Positions 18,900 through 28,081 of a stretch of DNA of 64,000 nucleotides are shown here, one piece after another (positions within the stretch are counted from its first letter, which is position 1; each line of letters opens with the position of its first letter). Origin of the DNA: Parvicella tangerina (GTDB lineage Bacteria; Bacteroidota; Bacteroidia; Flavobacteriales_D; Parvicellaceae); the NCBI RefSeq assembly GCF_907165195.1, contig NZ_OU015584.1, positions 2,108,001 to 2,172,000 on the forward strand, read 5' to 3'. A program made the translations under genes and the position numbers. The notes beneath the pieces were generated by a model. The model had not been told where the DNA came from. It ran no database searches and worked only from the letters and a program-made list of their open reading frames with translations.

Positions 18900-19973
18900 T
18901 TAGGAAGTTACAAATTTCGGTTTGTTTCTATCCTGCGCAGCAAAGACTTGATTCTTTGCTGCTTTTTTTTGCTCAAATTCGGGATCATAATATTGTTCGT
19001 TTTTCCACAGCGTATACATTAGCAATAGCATTTTGCGTTGCACCGCTACTAATGCGACTATTGGCTTTTCTTTTTTGGGTTTTAAACGTTGATAAAAAGG
19101 CTTTAAGGTTGGATTTAATCGTACTGCTGTCATGGAAGGCATGTGCAACACAGCTCGAATGTGTTTATTCCCCTTTTTGCTGATTTTTGTTTTACCGTGA
19201 AAACTCCCTGAATCTCGTAAAACCACGTCATAACCAGCATAACTCGTTAGTTGTTTCCTATTATTGATCAATGCAAATCCACCTGTCTCTGCTACGACCG
19301 TAGTTGCTGATATAAATGATACTCCTGGTATACTCTCTAGGTAATTGATCTTTCTGCTTAACTCTGCATCTTTTTGAACACATCTGCCCATTTCCTCTTC
19401 TATTTCTGCTATCTGAGTGTTGATCAACTTCAACCTTTTTTCAAAGCGTTTTATCGTTCTTGACTCCGTATGAACGCCTACCTTCAGTGCTTCAAGTCGA
19501 TTCTTTTCTACACTCCGTTCTTTTACTAACATCGACCTTTCTCTACTCAAACTCTTTAGCTCCTGAAGCGTCTCACTGGGAGGGGACCAGATCTGTAACT
19601 CACGTTCACATCCTAACATCGAAAGCATCTTGCTATCTAGAGCATCTGTTTTGGAACGTTGATTTAAACTCTGTGCATATTTCTTTACACGACCTGATTG
19701 CATGATACATACATTATAACCCAAATCGTGTAGGTAATGCGAAACGCCTTCATGATAAACTCCTGTGGCCTCCATTACTACAATTAACTGGTCTTGTTTC
19801 ATTGTTCGCTTTAACCATTTTACTAGCTCTGAGAAGCCCTCCTTGTTATTGGCAACATCTTTTCGTGATACAAACTCCTTGGTTAAATCACTTCTCAAAA
19901 AACCTAAACAAATCGACAACGTATCTTTCGATACATCTAGTCCCAATGCTTGTTTTAATACTTTTAATTCCAT
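18900..19973 (-). CDS. IS110-family transposase (DEDD recombinase)
   Basis: A 357-residue intact transposase. The N-terminal RuvC-like domain shows LGLDVSKDT (first Asp), VVMEATGVYHEG (Glu) and KTDALDSKML (Asp). A coiled coil at about 120-200 leads to the C-terminal Transposase_20 domain with PGVSFISATTVVAETG, YAGYDVVLRDSG and KISKKGNKHIRAVLH, including the serine-containing segment typical of the family. The ATG at 19973 starts MELKVLKQ next to the catalytic domain; an alternative ATG is at 19994. It is transcribed against all cassette genes. Nothing suggests inactivation. Confidence 0.92.
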   Translation of the reverse strand: MELKVLKQALGLDVSKDTLSICLGFLRSDLTKEFVSRKDVANNKEGFSELVKWLKRTMKQDQLIVVMEATGVYHEGVSHYLHDLGYNVCIMQSGRVKKYAQSLNQRSKTDALDSKMLSMLGCERELQIWSPPSETLQELKSLSRERSMLVKERSVEKNRLEALKVGVHTESRTIKRFEKRLKLINTQIAEIEEEMGRCVQKDAELSRKINYLESIPGVSFISATTVVAETGGFALINNRKQLTSYAGYDVVLRDSGSFHGKTKISKKGNKHIRAVLHMPSMTAVRLNPTLKPFYQRLKPKKEKPIVALVAVQRKMLLLMYTLWKNEQYYDPEFEQKKAAKNQVFAAQDRNKPKFVTS

Positions 19974-20077
19974 GAATATTTCTTTTTTTACCAATATTTT
20001 CCTTTGTAACCTTTGCTCGCTTTTGATTCGATCTCTTTGTTTTTGGACCTAGGTACTGTTCAGGCTCTAAGAAAAAT

Positions 20078-20240: not shown

Positions 20241-22811
20241 ATGATACGAAAAGACAAAATCAAACAAATCGACTTTCTCCTAAATAAATTTAGAGAGACA
20301 AATCACGATTTTAAAGAATTGCCTAAGTGTTCATTCTTACTTGGTGCAGGATGTTCTAGAAGTTCTGAAATACCGACAGGTTATGAGATAATAGAACTTC
20401 TAAGAAAGCATTGGTACCTAAAGAACTTTGCGAATAGTTCCGAATTCTTGGAATCTACATACGACATAGACAATGAAGCTTTTCAAGTCATACAGGCTAA
20501 TTTTCAAAGTAAATATCTTGAAGAAGAAACTACCTTAAAGGAAAAGGTTGAAAAAGTACTTGAAGACCTAAAGAAAAACACACCACCCTATCTTTCAAAT
20601 CTTTTCAAAACGAGTGATGCGAAAACCTTAAAGCAGTTCGTTTTTGATGATTTGCTTTATGGTTTTTGGTTTGAGCGTTTTTCTGAAAGTCCAAAAGAAA
20701 GGCAAAAACTGATAGAACACCTGATTGACTTTAAAGAACCTTCAGGTGCATATTTGTTGTTTTCTCATTTAATATCAAATGGAAAAATTACCAATGTATT
20801 CACCACAAATTTTGATGACCTCATTTATGATTCGCTAATTAGATATACTGAAACTAAGCCAAAAATATATTCACATAATGAAGTTGCTCAGTACATTAAT
20901 ACCCTGAGCAAACGACCAAACATTATCAAATTACACGGAGATTTTTTATTCGAGAATATCAAGAATACTAAACCCGAAACAGGGTTGCTTTGGAGTAATA
21001 TGGAGAATAAATTGGAAGAATGCTTAAAATCATTTGACCTTATTGTAGTTGGCTATAATGGAGCAGATGACTCTGTTATGAATGCTCTTGCTAAGTTGAA
21101 GTCTAAGGATTATGGTTTGCTTTGGTGTGGTCGCAACCCAGAAAACCTAAATTGGAGAGTAAAGGAACTGATAAACCAGACGAACAATTCATACTTTATT
21201 CAAATAGAGTCATTTGAACTTTTATCAATGAAGCTTTTTGAAGTCTACAAAGATGAAATTGATTATCCGGATTTTAGAAGCAACGCTGAAAGAAAAGAAA
21301 AAGAGTTTCACCAATATATTACAGAGTTCAAAACTGAATTAACAGAAAATGTAAAGCTTGAAGAAAAAGAAATTGAGAGTATAAACTCAACTTTAGATAT
21401 TGTTCTAGACAGAAACAGTTTTTTTAGAGTTGCTGAATTAAACCATTCAGAACAGTTGGAATTTCTCAGAAAGTTAAGAATTGATGGTATAAGTCGTACA
21501 CTAAAAAACATACACACGAATATTAATTGGGAGCACTCAAAAACCCTGTATGCGGATTTAGACAAAGATGATTTCTTCCAAAACAAGCTTTATGAAGTAT
21601 CTATTCAGCATATTTCCAATGCCCTCTCAAATTTGAGAAAAATTGACGCTGAAAGAACCAAGAGTATTTTAGATTCATTAAATGATGAAAATCTCCTAGA
21701 TAAAATTAATAGTGCTTCTTCCTCTGACTTGTATTCAGGTATTTCAGAACTAAAATCTATTAGTCCTAAAAAAATTGAATCAATTCTAAATAAAAGAAAG
21801 GTGTCTCCTGAATTGTTGGTTATAGAAAACCAAGACCTTAGAAAAGTTGCTTTCAAGCTTAAAACATTATCACCAAAAGATGGATTAGAGCTATTGATTT
21901 CGAATAATGAAGCTCTTCAAACTAAAATTAAAGAAGAGCCAATAAAAGAAGTTGTCATTTTTTTAGAGAATGTTTCTAGTATTTACTTTAAAGAATGTCA
22001 AGCACTATTTGAACAACTAGAAAACTCCTTTTTAGCTGATAGAATATTAGAACAAAATCTGACACTACTTAGTATTTCGTTGAGAGTATTTAATCACCTC
22101 AATAGAAATAAAACTAAACAACTTATAAAGCTACTTGATAAGGATAAATTACAATCCAAACTGACTACAACAAGTTTGCAAGCAATCAAGTCGTTACTAT
22201 TTGCATTAAAAGATGTGGACTTTCAATTATCTAAGTACTTACTAGGCTTGATTACTGATGAGCAATTTCAGGAAAAAATTGAAAAGTCAGATTTACTTAG
22301 TATTGCGGAGTCACTCGAATATTTATCCAAAATTGACAATCCAAGAATTTCAAAAATTGCAAAGGAGATAAACAGCGAATTAATTACTCATAAGATAGAC
22401 AATGAAGATTTTACATTCCAACAATTTGGCAATGCAATGTCCAAGTTAATCGTTTTCGATTTTGACAAATTTTGTCTTGCTGCCAGAGAAATTGATGTTC
22501 CAAGATTGACTGACAAAATATCAAAGACTATAAATAAAACGGGAGAGCAAGTATTTCTGCATTTTGTTCCAATCTACTTCAAGGTAAATCGTGTGTTATT
22601 CTCTAAAATCATAAAAGAATCTCCACAAGACTATATTGACTCGATTTTAAAGTGGCCAAAAATTGACTTATACACCGTAAACCTACCTTATCTAAACAGA
22701 GTCTTTATTGAAAACAAAATGGATAAAGAGAAGGAATATGTTGATTACATAATTAGTAACAATCAAGATAAGTTTAGGAAAAAGAAAAGGAGAAAAAAGA
22801 AAAAACACTAG
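20241..22811 (+). CDS. SIR2-domain protein with long helical C-terminus, probable anti-phage effector (cassette 2)
   Basis: An 856-residue protein. The N-terminal SIR2-like domain (about 25-300) shows the Rossmann motif LLGAGCSR (about 34-40), the TTNFDDL motif (about 188-194), the catalytic LHGD (about 231-234) and a late GYNGADDS. In standalone bacterial SIR2 defence proteins this domain hydrolyses NAD+. Residues about 310-840 are predicted to be almost entirely helical with repeated L-x-x-L units and may be the sensor; the end is strongly basic (KKKRRKKKKH). The layout resembles DSR2-type abortive-infection proteins, but equivalence is inference. No helicase or second component is adjacent. 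It begins 10 bases after the attC right box, and its stop lies next to the left box of the following site. Confidence 0.75.
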   Translation: MIRKDKIKQIDFLLNKFRETNHDFKELPKCSFLLGAGCSRSSEIPTGYEIIELLRKHWYLKNFANSSEFLESTYDIDNEAFQVIQANFQSKYLEEETTLKEKVEKVLEDLKKNTPPYLSNLFKTSDAKTLKQFVFDDLLYGFWFERFSESPKERQKLIEHLIDFKEPSGAYLLFSHLISNGKITNVFTTNFDDLIYDSLIRYTETKPKIYSHNEVAQYINTLSKRPNIIKLHGDFLFENIKNTKPETGLLWSNMENKLEECLKSFDLIVVGYNGADDSVMNALAKLKSKDYGLLWCGRNPENLNWRVKELINQTNNSYFIQIESFELLSMKLFEVYKDEIDYPDFRSNAERKEKEFHQYITEFKTELTENVKLEEKEIESINSTLDIVLDRNSFFRVAELNHSEQLEFLRKLRIDGISRTLKNIHTNINWEHSKTLYADLDKDDFFQNKLYEVSIQHISNALSNLRKIDAERTKSILDSLNDENLLDKINSASSSDLYSGISELKSISPKKIESILNKRKVSPELLVIENQDLRKVAFKLKTLSPKDGLELLISNNEALQTKIKEEPIKEVVIFLENVSSIYFKECQALFEQLENSFLADRILEQNLTLLSISLRVFNHLNRNKTKQLIKLLDKDKLQSKLTTTSLQAIKSLLFALKDVDFQLSKYLLGLITDEQFQEKIEKSDLLSIAESLEYLSKIDNPRISKIAKEINSELITHKIDNEDFTFQQFGNAMSKLIVFDFDKFCLAAREIDVPRLTDKISKTINKTGEQVFLHFVPIYFKVNRVLFSKIIKESPQDYIDSILKWPKIDLYTVNLPYLNRVFIENKMDKEKEYVDYIISNNQDKFRKKKRRKKKKH

Positions 22812-22816
22812 GCACA
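22811..22816 (+). other. attC-like site 2, left box (split by intron a)
   Basis: GGCACA directly after the SIR2 stop, followed by the intron 3' end. The right part is at 23475-23533: a hairpin with arms GTGTATAGTGCATACC and GGATACGCACCATACAC, then CCGTTGTGGCAC, which complements the left box GGCACAA. Removing the intron restores one compact hairpin site between the SIR2 gene and the small hydrolase. Confidence 0.55.
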
Positions 22817-23474
22817 ATCGAGTAGACGGCTCCGCCAAAAATTGACGGAGTGCGCCTCTCACACCACCCAGCGTACGGTTCTCGTACTGGGCGGTTCGAT
22901 ACTCATCAATACAAAGCTCTTTTCACCCTTGTAGCTATTCCTTTTTACTTTAAGCATAGGCTATACTTTTGTATTCCTATGCGAATTTCTAGAAGAGTAT
23001 CGTTCGGTCCTTCCATACGCTGTGAGTCCTCCGATGCTTATCCCTTAGGTCACCGACTCGTTGCTTGTATGTACTATGACCTCTGCTGACTTCTCCTCTA
23101 TGCTAACGCGTAGCTAAGGAGACCTCCCCCGGTAAGAGCTTTTTCTTCCCGTCAATAACTGCCGCATCTACATAACCAACCTTTTCTTGTGGGCGTTACA
23201 ATGATGTGCTTGCTTACCCAAATTGGCTATGCCTCTGTATGCGATTCCTGTTCGTCAGTACCGACTTTTGTAGTCCTGCTTCCTTCAGTCCTAGCTTCAC
23301 AACTAACAACCTTGCAGCTTACTAATGGTTATAGGAACGACCCTAACCCACAAGGGACTTTAACCCTCTAGAAAGATAACACCCGCTTTTCTTTCGTTTC
23401 TAATCAATAATTTGCATTATTGATATCAAAAACAAAATTCAAACGGGTGTGTCCTGCTCATGCAGGGCACACAC
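22817..23474 (-). mobile_element. ORF-less group II intron, copy a (658 nt, canonical domain V)
   Basis: Read on the minus strand the element begins GTGTG (consensus GUGYG) and ends ...CTACTCGAT. Domain V (22863-22895, 33 nt) has a 9-bp lower stem ACCGCCCAG/CTGGGTGGT, with the catalytic CGC triad containing a G-U pair, a 2-nt CG bulge and a 4-bp upper stem with a five-base loop. It is followed by GTGAGAGG. Domain VI (22818-22850) is a hairpin with a likely branch-point A (22823) 7 nt from the 3' end. The 5' part contains domain I-like segments (AGGACTGAAGGAAGC). There is no reverse-transcriptase or maturase frame; domain IV is short. It lies in antisense to the cassette genes, in attC-like site 2. 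Confidence 0.75.
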
Positions 23475-23533
23475 AAAGTGTATAGTGCATACCTTGCGGG
23501 ATACGCACCATACACAAACCGTTGTGGCACATT
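23475..23533 (+). other. attC-like site 2, right part
   Basis: A strong hairpin (about 16-bp imperfect arms, loop TTGCG) followed by AAACCGTTGTGGCAC. GTTGTGGC (23521-23528) stands where the right attC box is expected, 14-20 bases before the hydrolase ATG. The sequence AAA at 23475-23477 is the last part of the intron 5' exon (TTT on the minus strand), directly after the stem. Confidence 0.5.
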
Positions 23534-23546
23534 TAAGAAAGACGAA

Positions 23547-24197
23547 ATGAATATCTATGGAATAAGTGGTTTAGGTGCTGATAAAAGAGTCTTTGAAAGA
23601 CTGTCTTTAGAGCAAAACCTAATTCCGATAGATTGGATTGATCCAGAGCCAAACGAATCAATCGAATCTTATTCCAATAGATTAAAAGAGGTCATCGATA
23701 CCTCTGAGCCATTTATTTTGATAGGAGTTAGTTTTGGAGGATTAATAGCTACTGAGATTTCGAAAATTCTTAATCCTGAATTAACCATATTGATTTCCTC
23801 AGCTGAAACAAAAAACGAATTGCGCTCAATCTATCGTGGATTTGGGAAAACTAATTTAATAAAATTGATTCCCAATAAGTTGTTCGATATGCCACGAGGT
23901 TTCGCCACTTTTATGTTCGGCACTAATGAGAAAAAATTACTTTCTGACATCTTGGACGATACAGATCTAAAATTTACCAAATGGGCAATTAATGAATTGA
24001 CTAACTGGAAGAATGAAACCAAGTTGGAAAAAGTGGTTAAAATAAATGGCTCAAAGGACAAACTTATTCCACCGTCTCAATCTGATTATTTAATTGATGG
24101 AGGCGAACATTTTATGGTTGTCGATAAGGCGGATGAAATAAGTACGATAATCAACAACGAAATAAAAAAATACGTGCCACAACAAAGACTAAAATAA
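23547..24197 (+). CDS. small alpha/beta hydrolase (cassette 3)
   Basis: A 216-residue cytoplasmic alpha/beta hydrolase. It starts with MNIYGISGLGADKRVFERL, the short first strand and oxyanion region of this group. The nucleophile elbow is GVSFGG (Ser), the acid probably lies in KINGSKDKLIPP, and the histidine in DGGEHFMV. Proteins of this compact form are common hypothetical hydrolases in Bacteroidota, with unknown substrates. The ATG at 23547 is chosen; the frame continues upstream through the attC hairpin, which is not coding. The last eight codons (VPQQRLK and stop) lie inside the following attC-like site. Confidence 0.75.
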   Translation: MNIYGISGLGADKRVFERLSLEQNLIPIDWIDPEPNESIESYSNRLKEVIDTSEPFILIGVSFGGLIATEISKILNPELTILISSAETKNELRSIYRGFGKTNLIKLIPNKLFDMPRGFATFMFGTNEKKLLSDILDDTDLKFTKWAINELTNWKNETKLEKVVKINGSKDKLIPPSQSDYLIDGGEHFMVVDKADEISTIINNEIKKYVPQQRLK

Positions 24198-24251
24198 ACA
24201 GCCCTTCCCTACCAAACCGTTTCTGCTTATTTTAGCCTAAACGTTGGGCAC
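24174..24251 (+). other. attC-like site 3 (intact)
   Basis: The only uninterrupted, complete site. It starts GTGCCACAAC (24174-24183) and ends GTTGGGCAC (24243-24251; core GTTGGGC fits GTTRRRY), which are imperfect inverses. The stem is CTAAAATAAACAG (24189-24201) against CTGCTTATTTTAG (24223-24235) with one mismatch and a 21-base loop. The left end overlaps the 3' end of the hydrolase gene. Total length 78 bp, within the range of integron attC sites. The 213 bases from here to the next ATG hold no recognisable gene. Confidence 0.65.
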
Positions 24252-24464
24252 AATTCAACACATCAGAGAACCGATTAAGTTCTCAAGCAAACGACAAAAT
24301 GACCAGTAGAATTGACAAAAATGACCGAAAAAATAAAACATGTAACAAACTGAAAATCAAACAACTAAATTGACGTTAGTCAAAATTAAAACGAACACAC
24401 ATTAAACCTTTCTATAAATCTTGAGTCAAATGTGTATTTGAACAAATTAAATACAAAACAGAAT

Positions 24465-25655
24465 ATGAAAACTCTTTTAACCTCTCTACTAATTGTACTA
24501 TCAATAAATGAGTCCTTTTCTCAAAATAGTTTTTACGTTCAGCCTGTATTGACCGACCCTTCTTATACTGCAGCTCAAGATAGCCATCTTGTTATCCGGC
24601 CAAACACAACGCCTTTGAATAAGCTATTTGTTTTTTTTGGTGGCACAGGTTCAAAAACTATGTTTCTTCAAAGAATATCTAATAAAGCATCGGACTTGGG
24701 CTACCATGTCATCAATCTTGCTTATCCAAACTCAGTACCTGCTCTTTTTTGCTCTAACTCTTCTGACTTAATGTGCTTTGATAATTTTAGAGAAGAGTTG
24801 TTCTATGGCACACCTGTAAGCAGTATTGTTTCAATCGATTCTCTGAATTCGCTTAACACAAGGTTGAAGAATTTGCTAAACTACCTTTCAGTAACCTATC
24901 CTTCAGACAATTGGAATCAATATATATCTCAAGACTCAATTCATTGGAATAAAATTGCGGTTGGTGGACATTCGCAAGGGGCGGGTCATGCAGCTTATTG
25001 TGCCAAAAAAAACAATGTTGACAGAGTTTTAATGTTTTCTGGCGCAAATGATTTCAGTGATTATTATAATTCGCCTGCAAATTGGATAACGGGTTCTTCT
25101 TTAACAGACGCTTCGCGATTTTATGCATTCTTAAATCTGTTTGATGAAGCTGCTGGCTTTGCTGATCAATATCAAAATCTTATCGGTTTTGGCATGACAC
25201 AAACAACTGATACAATAAGAGTTGACAATGTTAGTAGTCCTTACAATAACTCCCAATGTCTTTATACAACATCAAACGCTCAGCCTCCACAGACTAATAA
25301 ATTTCATGGTTCTACAGTTGTTGACCCAAGAACTCCATTGGACTCAAACGGTAACCCAATATTCGACCCTGTTTGGGATTATATGCTTACTTCAGCCACA
25401 GTTTTAGGACTTAATGAAACGTCTCAAGTCAATCAAACTGCAGCATATCCCAATCCGACAAATGGATTGGTACGTTTGAAAGTAGACACTCAAATAGAAG
25501 ACAATTTTATCATCGACATTAATGGAAGACACTTAGGCTCACTTAAAATTATTGACAATGAACTAGACATATCTCATCTCCCAAATGCAACATATTTCGT
25601 TTATTTCAAATTGCAAAATGGGGAATGGAGCTATTGTAAAATAATGAAAGAATAA
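24465..25655 (+). CDS. secreted alpha/beta-hydrolase-like protein with T9SS sorting domain (cassette 4)
   Basis: A 396-residue exported protein with a signal peptide ending near NESFSQ. The central domain contains FVFFGGTGSKTMFL and the nucleophile elbow VGGHSQGAGHAAY (GHSQG), placing it among alpha/beta hydrolases of the BPSS1187-like secreted group; the exact family is uncertain. A histidine near NKFHGSTVVDPRTP may complete the active site. The C-terminus is a T9SS type A domain (AAYPNPTNGLVRLKV ... NATYFVYFK). Start at 24465 gives the normal signal peptide; an in-frame GTG at 24432 is less likely. It needs the host's T9SS to be exported, which suggests the cassette circulates among Bacteroidota. 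Confidence 0.72.
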   Translation: MKTLLTSLLIVLSINESFSQNSFYVQPVLTDPSYTAAQDSHLVIRPNTTPLNKLFVFFGGTGSKTMFLQRISNKASDLGYHVINLAYPNSVPALFCSNSSDLMCFDNFREELFYGTPVSSIVSIDSLNSLNTRLKNLLNYLSVTYPSDNWNQYISQDSIHWNKIAVGGHSQGAGHAAYCAKKNNVDRVLMFSGANDFSDYYNSPANWITGSSLTDASRFYAFLNLFDEAAGFADQYQNLIGFGMTQTTDTIRVDNVSSPYNNSQCLYTTSNAQPPQTNKFHGSTVVDPRTPLDSNGNPIFDPVWDYMLTSATVLGLNETSQVNQTAAYPNPTNGLVRLKVDTQIEDNFIIDINGRHLGSLKIIDNELDISHLPNATYFVYFKLQNGEWSYCKIMKE

Positions 25656-25664
25656 CTGTGCCCA

Positions 25665-26402
25665 ATCGAGTAGACGGCTCCGCCAATAATTGACGGAGTG
25701 CGCCTCTCACATTTATCTACCGAAATACAATGTAGGCATGACCACCCAGCGTACGCGAGCAACGCTCCTTCCCTTCCAAAAATAATTCACTGGATTATTT
25801 TTGTCGTGAACATACTGGGCGGTTCGATACTCATCAATACAAAGCTCTTTTCACCCTTGTAGCTATTCCTTTTTACTTTAAGCATAGGCTATACTTTTGT
25901 ATTCCTATGCGAATTTCTAGAAGAGTATCGTTCGGTCCTTCCATACGCTGTGAGTCCTCCGATGCTTATCCCTTAGGTCACCGACTCGTTGCTTGTATGT
26001 ACTATGACCTCTGCTGACTTCTCCTCTATGCTAACGCGTAGCTAAGGAGACCTCCCCCGGTAAGAGCTTTTTCTTCCCGTCAATAACTGCCGCATCTACA
26101 TAACCAATCTTTTCTTGTGGGCGTTACAATGATGTGCTTGCTTACCCAAATTGGCTATGCCTCTGTATGCGATTCCTGTTCGTCAGTACCGACTTTTGTA
26201 GTCCTGCTTCCTTCAGTCCTAGCTTCACAACTAACAACCTTGCAGCTTACTAATGGTTATAGGAACGACCCTAACCCACAAGGGACTTTAACCCTCTAGA
26301 AAAATAACACCCGCTTTTCTTTCGTTTCTAATCAATAATTTGCATTATTGATATCAAAAACAAAATTCAAACGGGTGTGTCCTGCTCATGCAGGGCACAC
26401 AC
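25665..26402 (-). mobile_element. ORF-less group II intron, copy b (738 nt, expanded domain V)
   Basis: About 580 bases of the 5' part are the same as copy a except for a couple of substitutions, and the ends match (GTGTG start, ...CTACTCGAT end, branch A at 25671). The exon at the 3' side is the left attC box TGCCCA. Two insertions account for the extra 80 nt. One is 50 nt at the tip of domain V (25741-25823), containing its own hairpin AAAAATAAT/ATTATTTTT. The other is 30 nt between domain V and GTGAGAGG. The lower stem, the CGC triad and the two-base bulge are kept. There is no coding frame. At the 5' side the exon is a stem with arms AATAAACGCA/TGCGTTTATT followed by T residues. Confidence 0.75.
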
Positions 26403-26527
26403 AAAAAATAAACGCAATGTGGCTTTAATCCCGCTCCGGTTGGGCATTTTCGGTTGACAGAGAAACCTTTCGTTTCTTTACAACACCACGGACGAAGCCG
26501 CCCTGCGTTTATTCAGAACCGTTGTCC
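26403..26527 (+). other. attC-like site 4, right part (split by intron b)
   Basis: The arms AATAAACGCA (26407-26416) and TGCGTTTATT (26504-26513) close a hairpin of about 107 bases with an inner GGC...GCC stem. GTTGTCC (26521-26527) is the right box, 20 bases before the next ATG. The left box GTGCCCA is at 25658-25664 on the far side of intron b. An extra GTTGGGC in the loop (26439-26445) could be a remnant of another site. Confidence 0.5.
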
Positions 26528-26546
26528 ATAATCTAAAAAAACTCCA

Positions 26547-27308: not shown

Positions 27309-27590
27309 ATGATAAAGTCTTTTGGCAATAAGGAAACTGAGAAAATTTGGAACGGACAGAGGTCTAAGAAACTTCCGAATGAAATTCAGGAAATTGCAAG
27401 AAGAAAATTAAGAATGTTAAATAACTCTCAGGACATTCAAGATTTACGCATTCCTCCATCGAATCGACTAGAAAAACTTGGAGGAAATTTAAAAGATTAT
27501 CATAGCATTAGAATAAACAAGCAATGGAGAATCATTTTCATTTGGGAGAATGGGAATGCTTTTCAAGTTGAAATAGTTGATTATCATTAA
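27309..27590 (+). CDS. higB: HigB-type toxin (RelE superfamily mRNA interferase)
   Basis: A 93-residue protein of normal HigB length. Diagnostic features are WNGQRSKKLP near the N-terminus, ARRKLRMLNNS, LRIPPSNRLEKLGG and the terminal YHSIRINKQWRIIFIWENG, containing the conserved Arg/Trp/Arg of the RelE-fold active site. Family members cleave ribosome-bound mRNA. The toxin precedes the antitoxin, the usual higBA order. The ATG at 27309 is the natural start; the frame extends 9 codons upstream. The pair is the last cassette of the array, and a TTGACG-like element about 25 bases upstream may be its promoter. Confidence 0.88.
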   Translation: MIKSFGNKETEKIWNGQRSKKLPNEIQEIARRKLRMLNNSQDIQDLRIPPSNRLEKLGGNLKDYHSIRINKQWRIIFIWENGNAFQVEIVDYH

Positions 27591-27600
27591 TTTAATTAAT

Positions 27601-27897
27601 ATGAGTAATTTAAAGAACATACATCCTGGAGAGATTCTTTTAGAAGAGTTTCTTAAACCTCTTGAAATTTCTGCCTACAGACTTTCAAAAGACACCTTTA
27701 TTCCTCAAACTAGAATTAGTGAAATAATTAAAGGACGAAGAAGAATTACTGCGGACACCGCTCTAAGACTTTCCAAGTACTTTGGTACTTCTGCTAAATT
27801 CTGGCTGGGCCTACAAGACGATTACGATATTGAGGAAGAAAAGGCTAATAAAAAAGCCGAACTCGACAGTATCAAACAAATAAGTAACGCAGCCTAA
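27601..27897 (+). CDS. higA: HigA-type antitoxin (HTH/XRE family)
   Basis: A 98-residue antitoxin beginning MSNLKNIHPGEILLEEFLKPLEIS, the conserved HigA N-terminus, followed by a helix-turn-helix (YRLSKDTFIPQTRISEIIKGRRRIT) and TALRLSKYFGTSAKFWLGLQ. HigA neutralises HigB and represses the operon. It starts 10 bases after higB. Its TAA stop is formed with the left attC box: GCCTA belongs to the site and the last A is the first base of the truncated intron copy c, so intron insertion changed the sequence immediately after the coding end without harming the gene. Confidence 0.9.
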   Translation: MSNLKNIHPGEILLEEFLKPLEISAYRLSKDTFIPQTRISEIIKGRRRITADTALRLSKYFGTSAKFWLGLQDDYDIEEEKANKKAELDSIKQISNAA

Positions 27898-28081
27898 TCG
27901 AGTAGACGGCTCCGCCAATAATTGACGGGGTGAGCCTCTCACATTTATCAACCGAAATACAATGTAGGCATGACCACCTAGCAGACGAGAGCAACGCTCC
28001 TTCCCTTCCAAAAATAATTCACTGGATTATTTTTGTCGTGAACATACTGGGCGGTTCGATACTCATCAATACAAAGCTCTT
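27897..28081 (-). mobile_element. group II intron remnant, copy c (3' end only)
   Basis: This 185-bp stretch has the 3' end, domain VI, linker insertion and expanded domain V of copy b, including the hairpin insertion, with some substitutions (for example GCTAGGTGGT in place of GCTGGGTGGT, which weakens the lower stem). Homology to copies a and b ends abruptly at 28081, so domains I-IV and the right half of the attC-like site are deleted. The 49 bases to the next gene contain nothing recognisable. It marks the right edge of the cassette array. Confidence 0.75.

Follow-up and report, generated by a model that had tools for sequence, protein, structure and literature searches.

Bacterial group II introns without an open reading frame (ORF) are considered rare and short-lived, and they are nearly always found beside a related reverse transcriptase (RT) (PMC4424553). 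In Thermosynechococcus elongatus, mobilisation of such ORF-less introns in trans by driver RTs has been demonstrated (PMC2882425). A second relevant group comprises the group IIC-attC introns known from the integrons of Proteobacteria (S.ma.I2 type), which encode a class C RT, sit on the bottom strand of attC in its R'' box, lie antisense to the cassettes and have T as the first base of the 3' exon (PMC7923331). As for host systems, IntegronFinder 2.0 reported one complete integron in the Bacteroidetes proper, that of Salinibacter (PMC9024848). The locus described here is a 64,000-nt stretch (the window) of the Parvicella tangerina genome (contig NZ_OU015584.1, positions 2,108,001 to 2,172,000 of the forward strand), a member of the Bacteroidota. 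The window holds ORF-less group IIC introns lying in the attC R'' boxes of an integron-like Bacteroidota system, and it is considered likely that they were copied in trans by an RT resident in the same genome. No account of ORF-less IIC-attC introns, or of this Bacteroidota cassette system, was found in a literature search that left most subscription papers outside.

The introns of the window and their parts are as follows (window positions).

22817 to 23474, minus strand: copy a, an ORF-less group IIC intron of 658 nt with intact domains; 5' end at 23474, 3' end at 22817
22817 to 22896, minus strand: domains V and VI of copy a (RF00029, fold z-score)
22891 to 23013, minus strand: ORF-less-type domain IV of copy a, with a basal stem, a D4a-like hairpin and a GGTGAAAAGAG-loop hairpin; 17 pairs changed on both sides, 124 bits with covariance model R2
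25665 to 26402, minus strand: copy b, an ORF-less group IIC intron of 738 nt
25755 to 25812, minus strand: 58-nt insert in copy b that takes the place of 8 nt at the domain V tip (alignment with copy a)
25712 to 25741, minus strand: 30-nt insert in copy b, between domains V and VI
27897 to 28081, minus strand: remnant c, the final ~185 nt of a b-type intron, more decayed, having the domain V and V/VI inserts in common with b

The minus strand, the coordinates, the GTGTG start and the CTACTCGAT end given for these introns in a preliminary description made from the sequence alone are exact; the group IIC identity and the lack of an ORF were likewise confirmed, with no RT coding in a, b or c. The Rfam D1-D4 models match both a and b (RF02001 at 110–112 bits, RF01998 at 42 bits; 110.5 and 42.4 bits in a). 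The domains V and VI expected in copy a are present: RF00029 matches there with 36.5 bits (E 2.8e-6 in a 111-base search), which falls under the curated threshold of 40 bits where control integron IIC introns reach just 47–49 bits, and the match ends exactly at the intron end in a region with a fold z-score of -5.7.

Two full copies had been claimed, and while a is intact, b is altered by the 58 nt that stand for 8 nt at the domain V tip and by the 30 nt ahead of domain VI. Its D5-D5/6 region folds no better than shuffled sequences (z -0.6). Remnant c is indeed a 3' piece of the b type, being 96% identical to b over 190 nt. Both b and c are probably dead, because their domain V is split. Inserts at this position are recurrent, occurring within or just after domain V at the 3' ends of other introns (L067, L072, L095, L118, L162, L175 and L200), where they are often palindromic and differ in sequence. 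That the insert of b is a functional extension common to introns was rejected, as the inserts of the others are mostly unrelated and several of these copies are decayed; recurrent insertion at domain V is likelier than a shared functional extension.

The genome, a single contig (C1) of 3.98 Mb, holds seven intron copies in all, the remaining four being the following.

C1:174307-174964: copy d, ORF-less, 658 nt
C1:1334931-1335588: copy e, ORF-less, 658 nt
C1:1879656-1881522 and C1:3944217-3946083: copies f and g, identical, 1867 nt, each encoding a 423-aa class C RT/maturase

The related group II RT that had been suggested to reside elsewhere in the genome is therefore present in two identical copies. 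The 423-aa protein is a class C RT without an endonuclease domain, matches TIGR04416 with 349.8 bits, and has as its nearest solved structures 6ar1 (GsI-IIC RT; 303 bits) and 7uim (a group II maturase; 275 bits). A single mismatch in 658 nt separates copy a from copy d, although the two occupy unrelated loci, and nt 1-590 of copy b equal copy d except for one base. Taken together, a, d and e are 98–99.8% identical, with exact ends, flanks that are not shared, and intact, well-folding domains. In comparing the two types, the ORF-less copies are 99.5–100% identical to the RT copies over nt 1-403; beyond that point the types diverge at the domain III tip, in domain IV and, for a, b and d, in domain VI as well, with matching base changes. 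Copy e is the same as RT copy f in nt 1-403 and again in domain VI, where the final 85 nt hold a single difference, and the same as a/d in the part between; it is a recombinant of the two lineages, possibly formed via template switching or gene conversion. The near-identity of a and d and the mosaic copy e thus point to recent activity and to exchange between the RT and ORF-less types.

The 3' ends of all seven copies lie at the same point, at which the 3' exon opens with T, after which an R''-type box (GGCACA, TGCCCA, AGCCTA, GCTACA, CACCTA, CCACACA or CGCCAA) is read as its reverse complement. The joined flanks, that is, the empty sites, fold into attC-like hairpins with an R' of ACCGTTR or GCGTTG. 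Within the window these sites are arranged as listed.

22811 to 22816, plus strand: R'' box GGCACA of the site split by a, complementing its own cassette front GTTGTGCCTA at ~20222
23475 to 23527, plus strand: remainder of the site split by a, with the L'' stem, L', and R' = ACCGTTGTGGCACA
24168 to 24252, plus strand: unoccupied attC-like site (27.6 bits with covariance model R1), whose R'' GTGCCACAAC complements its own cassette front GTTGTGGCAC
25658 to 25664, plus strand: R'' box GTGCCCA of the site split by b, complementing the front GTTGGGCACA at ~24239
26403 to 26530, plus strand: remainder of the site split by b (R1 30.1 bits at 26388-26530)
27891 to 27896, plus strand: R'' box AGCCTA at the 3' end of remnant c

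An identical insertion point in the R'' box, antisense to the cassettes, had been noticed for the window introns and holds for all copies; d, e, f and g, rather than lying at unrelated sites, are inserted at the same point of attC-like boxes. The T run described ahead of each full copy was found at b only, the other 5' exons, that of a included, ending in CTTT, CGTT or CGGT. According to the proposed mechanism, the ORF-less introns would reverse-splice into the bottom strand of attC at this one point of R'', and their antisense orientation to the cassette genes would be due to that entry into the bottom strand. The integron-like Bacteroidota system would supply the attC target sites.

The same mode of insertion is seen across the phylum. 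A scan recovered 78 loci encoding relatives of the 423-aa RT (57–73% identity), nearly all in Bacteroidota. When the exons were compared with the TTGT/T consensus for the intron-binding sites IBS1 and IBS3, T was found at +1, the first 3' exon base, at 86 of the 90 intron 3' ends and at -1 in 52/55, the remaining bases of the 5' exon being variable. An assignment of the exon-binding site EBS1 by eye was given up, as no consistent pairing emerged. The R' motif AACGGYY occurs within 180 nt upstream in 25/53 sites, mostly at ~120 nt, against 4% of control windows (p 4e-21). Alignment of 22 empty sites (A1) with RNAalifold yielded 13 pairs, 12 of which are compensated on both sides. Model R1 was built from these 22 sites, four of which belong to this genome. 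Among 26 loci outside the training set it puts a site at the 5' end of the intron in 19, and it also detects 48 sites with no intron at their end; all 79 sites near RT introns are on the strand opposite to the intron. At one locus (L109), the cassette strand of the attC-like element contains sequences of the form TTG...TAnnTTTG, which resemble the Bacteroidota promoter.

The introns described here are like the group IIC-attC introns in their class C RT, their position in R'' of the attC bottom strand, their antisense orientation and the T that begins the 3' exon. They differ from that set in having an apparently separate Bacteroidota RT clade, a variable 5' exon that seems not to follow the TTGT consensus, an ORF-less family, and targets that form a different attC family in an order where none of 150 genomes has an IntI above the model cut-off (PMC7923331). 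In an RT tree the Bacteroidota clade of 67 rows (98) is separate from the three introns taken from integrons on enterobacterial plasmids (99); with so few references, the tree fits a single as well as a multiple origin of attC targeting. The earlier view of the window introns as relatives of IIC-attC introns is borne out for the mode of insertion only.

In integrons, the R'' of a cassette complements the front of that same cassette, which is the R' tail of the preceding site. This rule could be followed in a one-strand array at 3918629-3943473, ~26 kb long, which contains 13 (18 with local search) of the 21 sites that R1 detects in this genome at E <= 0.01 and has intron g at its far end. R'' complements the cassette's own front in 15/19 cassettes, a number that includes the first cassette, with its front from the site just 3' of the integrase, and the cassette containing intron g; 20,000 shuffles gave seven at most, and the alternative pairing of R'' with its own R' was found in 1/18. 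One cassette of the array is duplicated in tandem (98.6% identical), and the duplication ends at the GTT of R'. The rule is also visible in Polaribacter filamentus. Within the window, the two cassettes that a and b split follow it, as does the free site at 24168; therefore the target sites are, on their sequence, attC sites. The introns had been said to support an attC assignment of the boxes, which is upheld by the compensated hairpins and the cassette rule. Introns of this kind act as tags for recombination sites and so expose a cassette system in the Bacteroidota.

The array begins ~1.1 kb 3' of a gene for a 381-aa tyrosine recombinase (3916380-3917525), which lies upstream in the same direction and has the first site just 3' of its stop codon. 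This integrase scores 204.6 bits on the IntI model TIGR02249 (cut-off 265), with profile positions 179-242, the IntI-specific segment, unmatched. Its nearest model is the XerA-like NF040815 (217.5 against a cut-off of 220), and among solved structures an archaeal XerC-like protein and IntI4 come closest to it. A classical IntI in this genome was rejected, since no protein here, nor any in 150 genomes of the order, reaches the cut-off of the IntI model. A short palindrome ending in GTTR, a possible attI, directly follows the integrase stop codon in many orthologs (L220-L249). Many ortholog contigs stop no more than a few hundred bases past the integrase gene, an effect expected of a repeated site, and for this reason R1 gave few matches near the orthologs when flanks of 1.5 kb were searched; with larger flanks in complete contigs, R1 sites were found downstream of the integrase in several genomes. 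In its one-strand array of attC-like hairpins, its R'' matching the front of its own cassette, its tandemly duplicated cassette and its integrase at one end, the system resembles integrons and clusters of attC sites lacking integron-integrases (CALINs), from which it differs in the XerA-like integrase without the IntI-specific segment, placed upstream in the same direction with the first site just 3' of its stop.

Rather than being simple ORF deletions of the resident intron, the ORF-less introns form a conserved family with a domain III tip and a domain IV of their own. Recent internal deletion of RT introns was rejected as their origin, given that the domain III tip and domains IV and VI differ wholesale with compensation while nt 1-403 are identical. 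The ORF-less domain IV consists of the basal stem, the D4a-like hairpin and a further hairpin whose loop reads GGTGWAAAGRG, and ORF-less introns in other genomes have it too. Over eight sequences its 29 pairs are 90.9% paired, a percentage biased in favour by the derivation of the structure from the fold of copy a. Less affected are the compensatory counts, with 17 pairs showing compensatory change against 9.8 in shuffles (0/500 as high); covariation is 0.565, compared to 0.286 for shuffles and no more than 0.107 on sliding. In the RT copies the D4a-like hairpin lies ahead of the RT start; the ORF-less copies have kept this hairpin, its bases altered yet still pairing. Model R2 gives 58–124 bits on the ORF-less copies of this genome, Maribacter sp. 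4G9 and a Bacteroidales metagenome-assembled genome, the first two of which contributed to its training set, whereas RT introns all score 41 or less. Over 396 genomes of the phylum, R2 found further members in G578, G594, G598, G449 and G718 at 72–114 bits. As this family with its conserved, compensated domain IV is present in several Bacteroidota families, mostly without a detectable RT, the question of how ORF-less introns persist becomes testable. On balance it seems probable that many Bacteroidota carry an integron type of their own, with a XerA-like integrase, a first site 3' of the stop and covarying attC arrays, and that it sustains an RT-encoding IIC clade along with a conserved ORF-less satellite family that has its own domain IV and persists without an RT.

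In P. tangerina, splicing and copying of the ORF-less introns would be carried out in trans by the 423-aa class C RT/maturase of f and g. Near-identical ORF-less copies at unrelated sites beside two intact RT copies make copying in trans the best explanation, as in T. elongatus, where ORF-less introns also stand beside RT copies in one genome, D4a is kept with covarying changes, and trans mobilisation is the natural reading (PMC2882425). Unlike that set, which is confined to one genome and has ORF remnants, the present introns are of group IIC, target attC, possess a distinct domain IV in which no ORF remnant is evident and are found in several families of the phylum. The proposed dependence on a maturase in trans has thereby gained a candidate RT, present twice; such dependence would still have to accommodate ORF-less relatives in genomes without a detectable RT.

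Several observations weigh against this explanation. When 12 other genomes with the ORF-less family were checked, only G057 was found to carry an RT of this clade, and 8 of the 12 have no RVT_1 match at E <= 1e-10. Drafts are among the RT-negative genomes, although G164 (10 contigs) and G041 (40 contigs, 99% complete) are not of low quality. The ORF-less family as a whole can persist without a resident RT, and its ORF-less form outlives the helper RT or travels with cassettes; co-occurrence of RT and ORF-less introns across genomes was considered as a proof that the RT acts in trans, but it did not hold up generally. Within the window, the split domain V of b and c is present at two different attC sites, which requires mobility despite the insert or gene conversion. 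Lastly, the short IBS1, formed by the last bases of the 5' exon, varies from copy to copy to such an extent that no EBS1-IBS1 pairing could be named.

It is unlikely that the ORF-less copies are dead relics, spread as DNA with cassettes or by gene conversion and never mobilised by an RT. The split domain V of b and c, the truncation of c, and the decayed state of some other copies with domain V inserts are in keeping with such relics, as is the greater divergence between intron copies in genomes without an RT of this clade (95.5% identity in G063 and 85% in G578). This view is opposed by the intact a, d and e, with their exact ends, high identity and unshared flanks, and by the compensatory changes in domain IV, D4a and domain VI, which indicate that the RNA was under selection long after the ORF was lost.

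Splicing without any intron-encoded protein, by the intron itself or with host assistance, is a rather improbable alternative, according to which the RT would be irrelevant to splicing and the introns would be spread by cassette movement. Related ORF-less introns in genomes without an RVT_1 match would fit it, G063 having two copies and no RT candidate, and a precedent exists in C.te.I1 of C. tetani, an ORF-less intron whose genome likewise has no related RT; C.te.I1 differs in being a single intron in a gene, with alternative splicing, and in not targeting attC (PMC4424553). Precise insertion at new sites, however, requires reverse transcription of the intron, and the near-identical multicopy ORF-less introns are found here, where intact RT copies exist. 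That these are ordinary terminator-targeting IIC introns with an incidental likeness to attC is hardly credible and was rejected, for although IIC introns in general insert after terminator stem-loops (PMC4424553) and a T run precedes b, no T run longer than three is present at a, d, e, f or g, the R' motif is far above its control frequency, and the homologous targets are compensated and lie within arrays that obey the cassette rule.

The cassettes of the window carry the following genes.

20241 to 22811, plus strand: 856-aa protein with a SIR2-like domain (PF13289, 44.5 bits)
24465 to 25655, plus strand: protein with a secretion-system C-terminal sorting domain (PF18962)
27312 to 27897, plus strand: HigB-like toxin and helix-turn-helix antitoxin (PF05015, 84.5 bits; PF01381, 30.1 bits)

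Upstream of this cassette group, an ORF at 18900-19994 (minus strand) resembles an IS110-type transposase. In the ~26-kb array (L216/L217, corresponding to G000:C1:3912000-3948000), one cassette gene (L216:12943-13782) is possibly class D beta-lactamase-like, with a penicillin-binding transpeptidase domain, and another (L216:15716-16516) is possibly Erm-like, with an rRNA adenine dimethylase domain. Elsewhere, one IIC intron starts directly after the 3' end of another copy (L102:1-200), forming tandem introns, and a second type of group II intron is found near IIC introns at L072:6601-6676 (minus strand; RF00029 64.7 bits) as well as in L084, L114 and L125.

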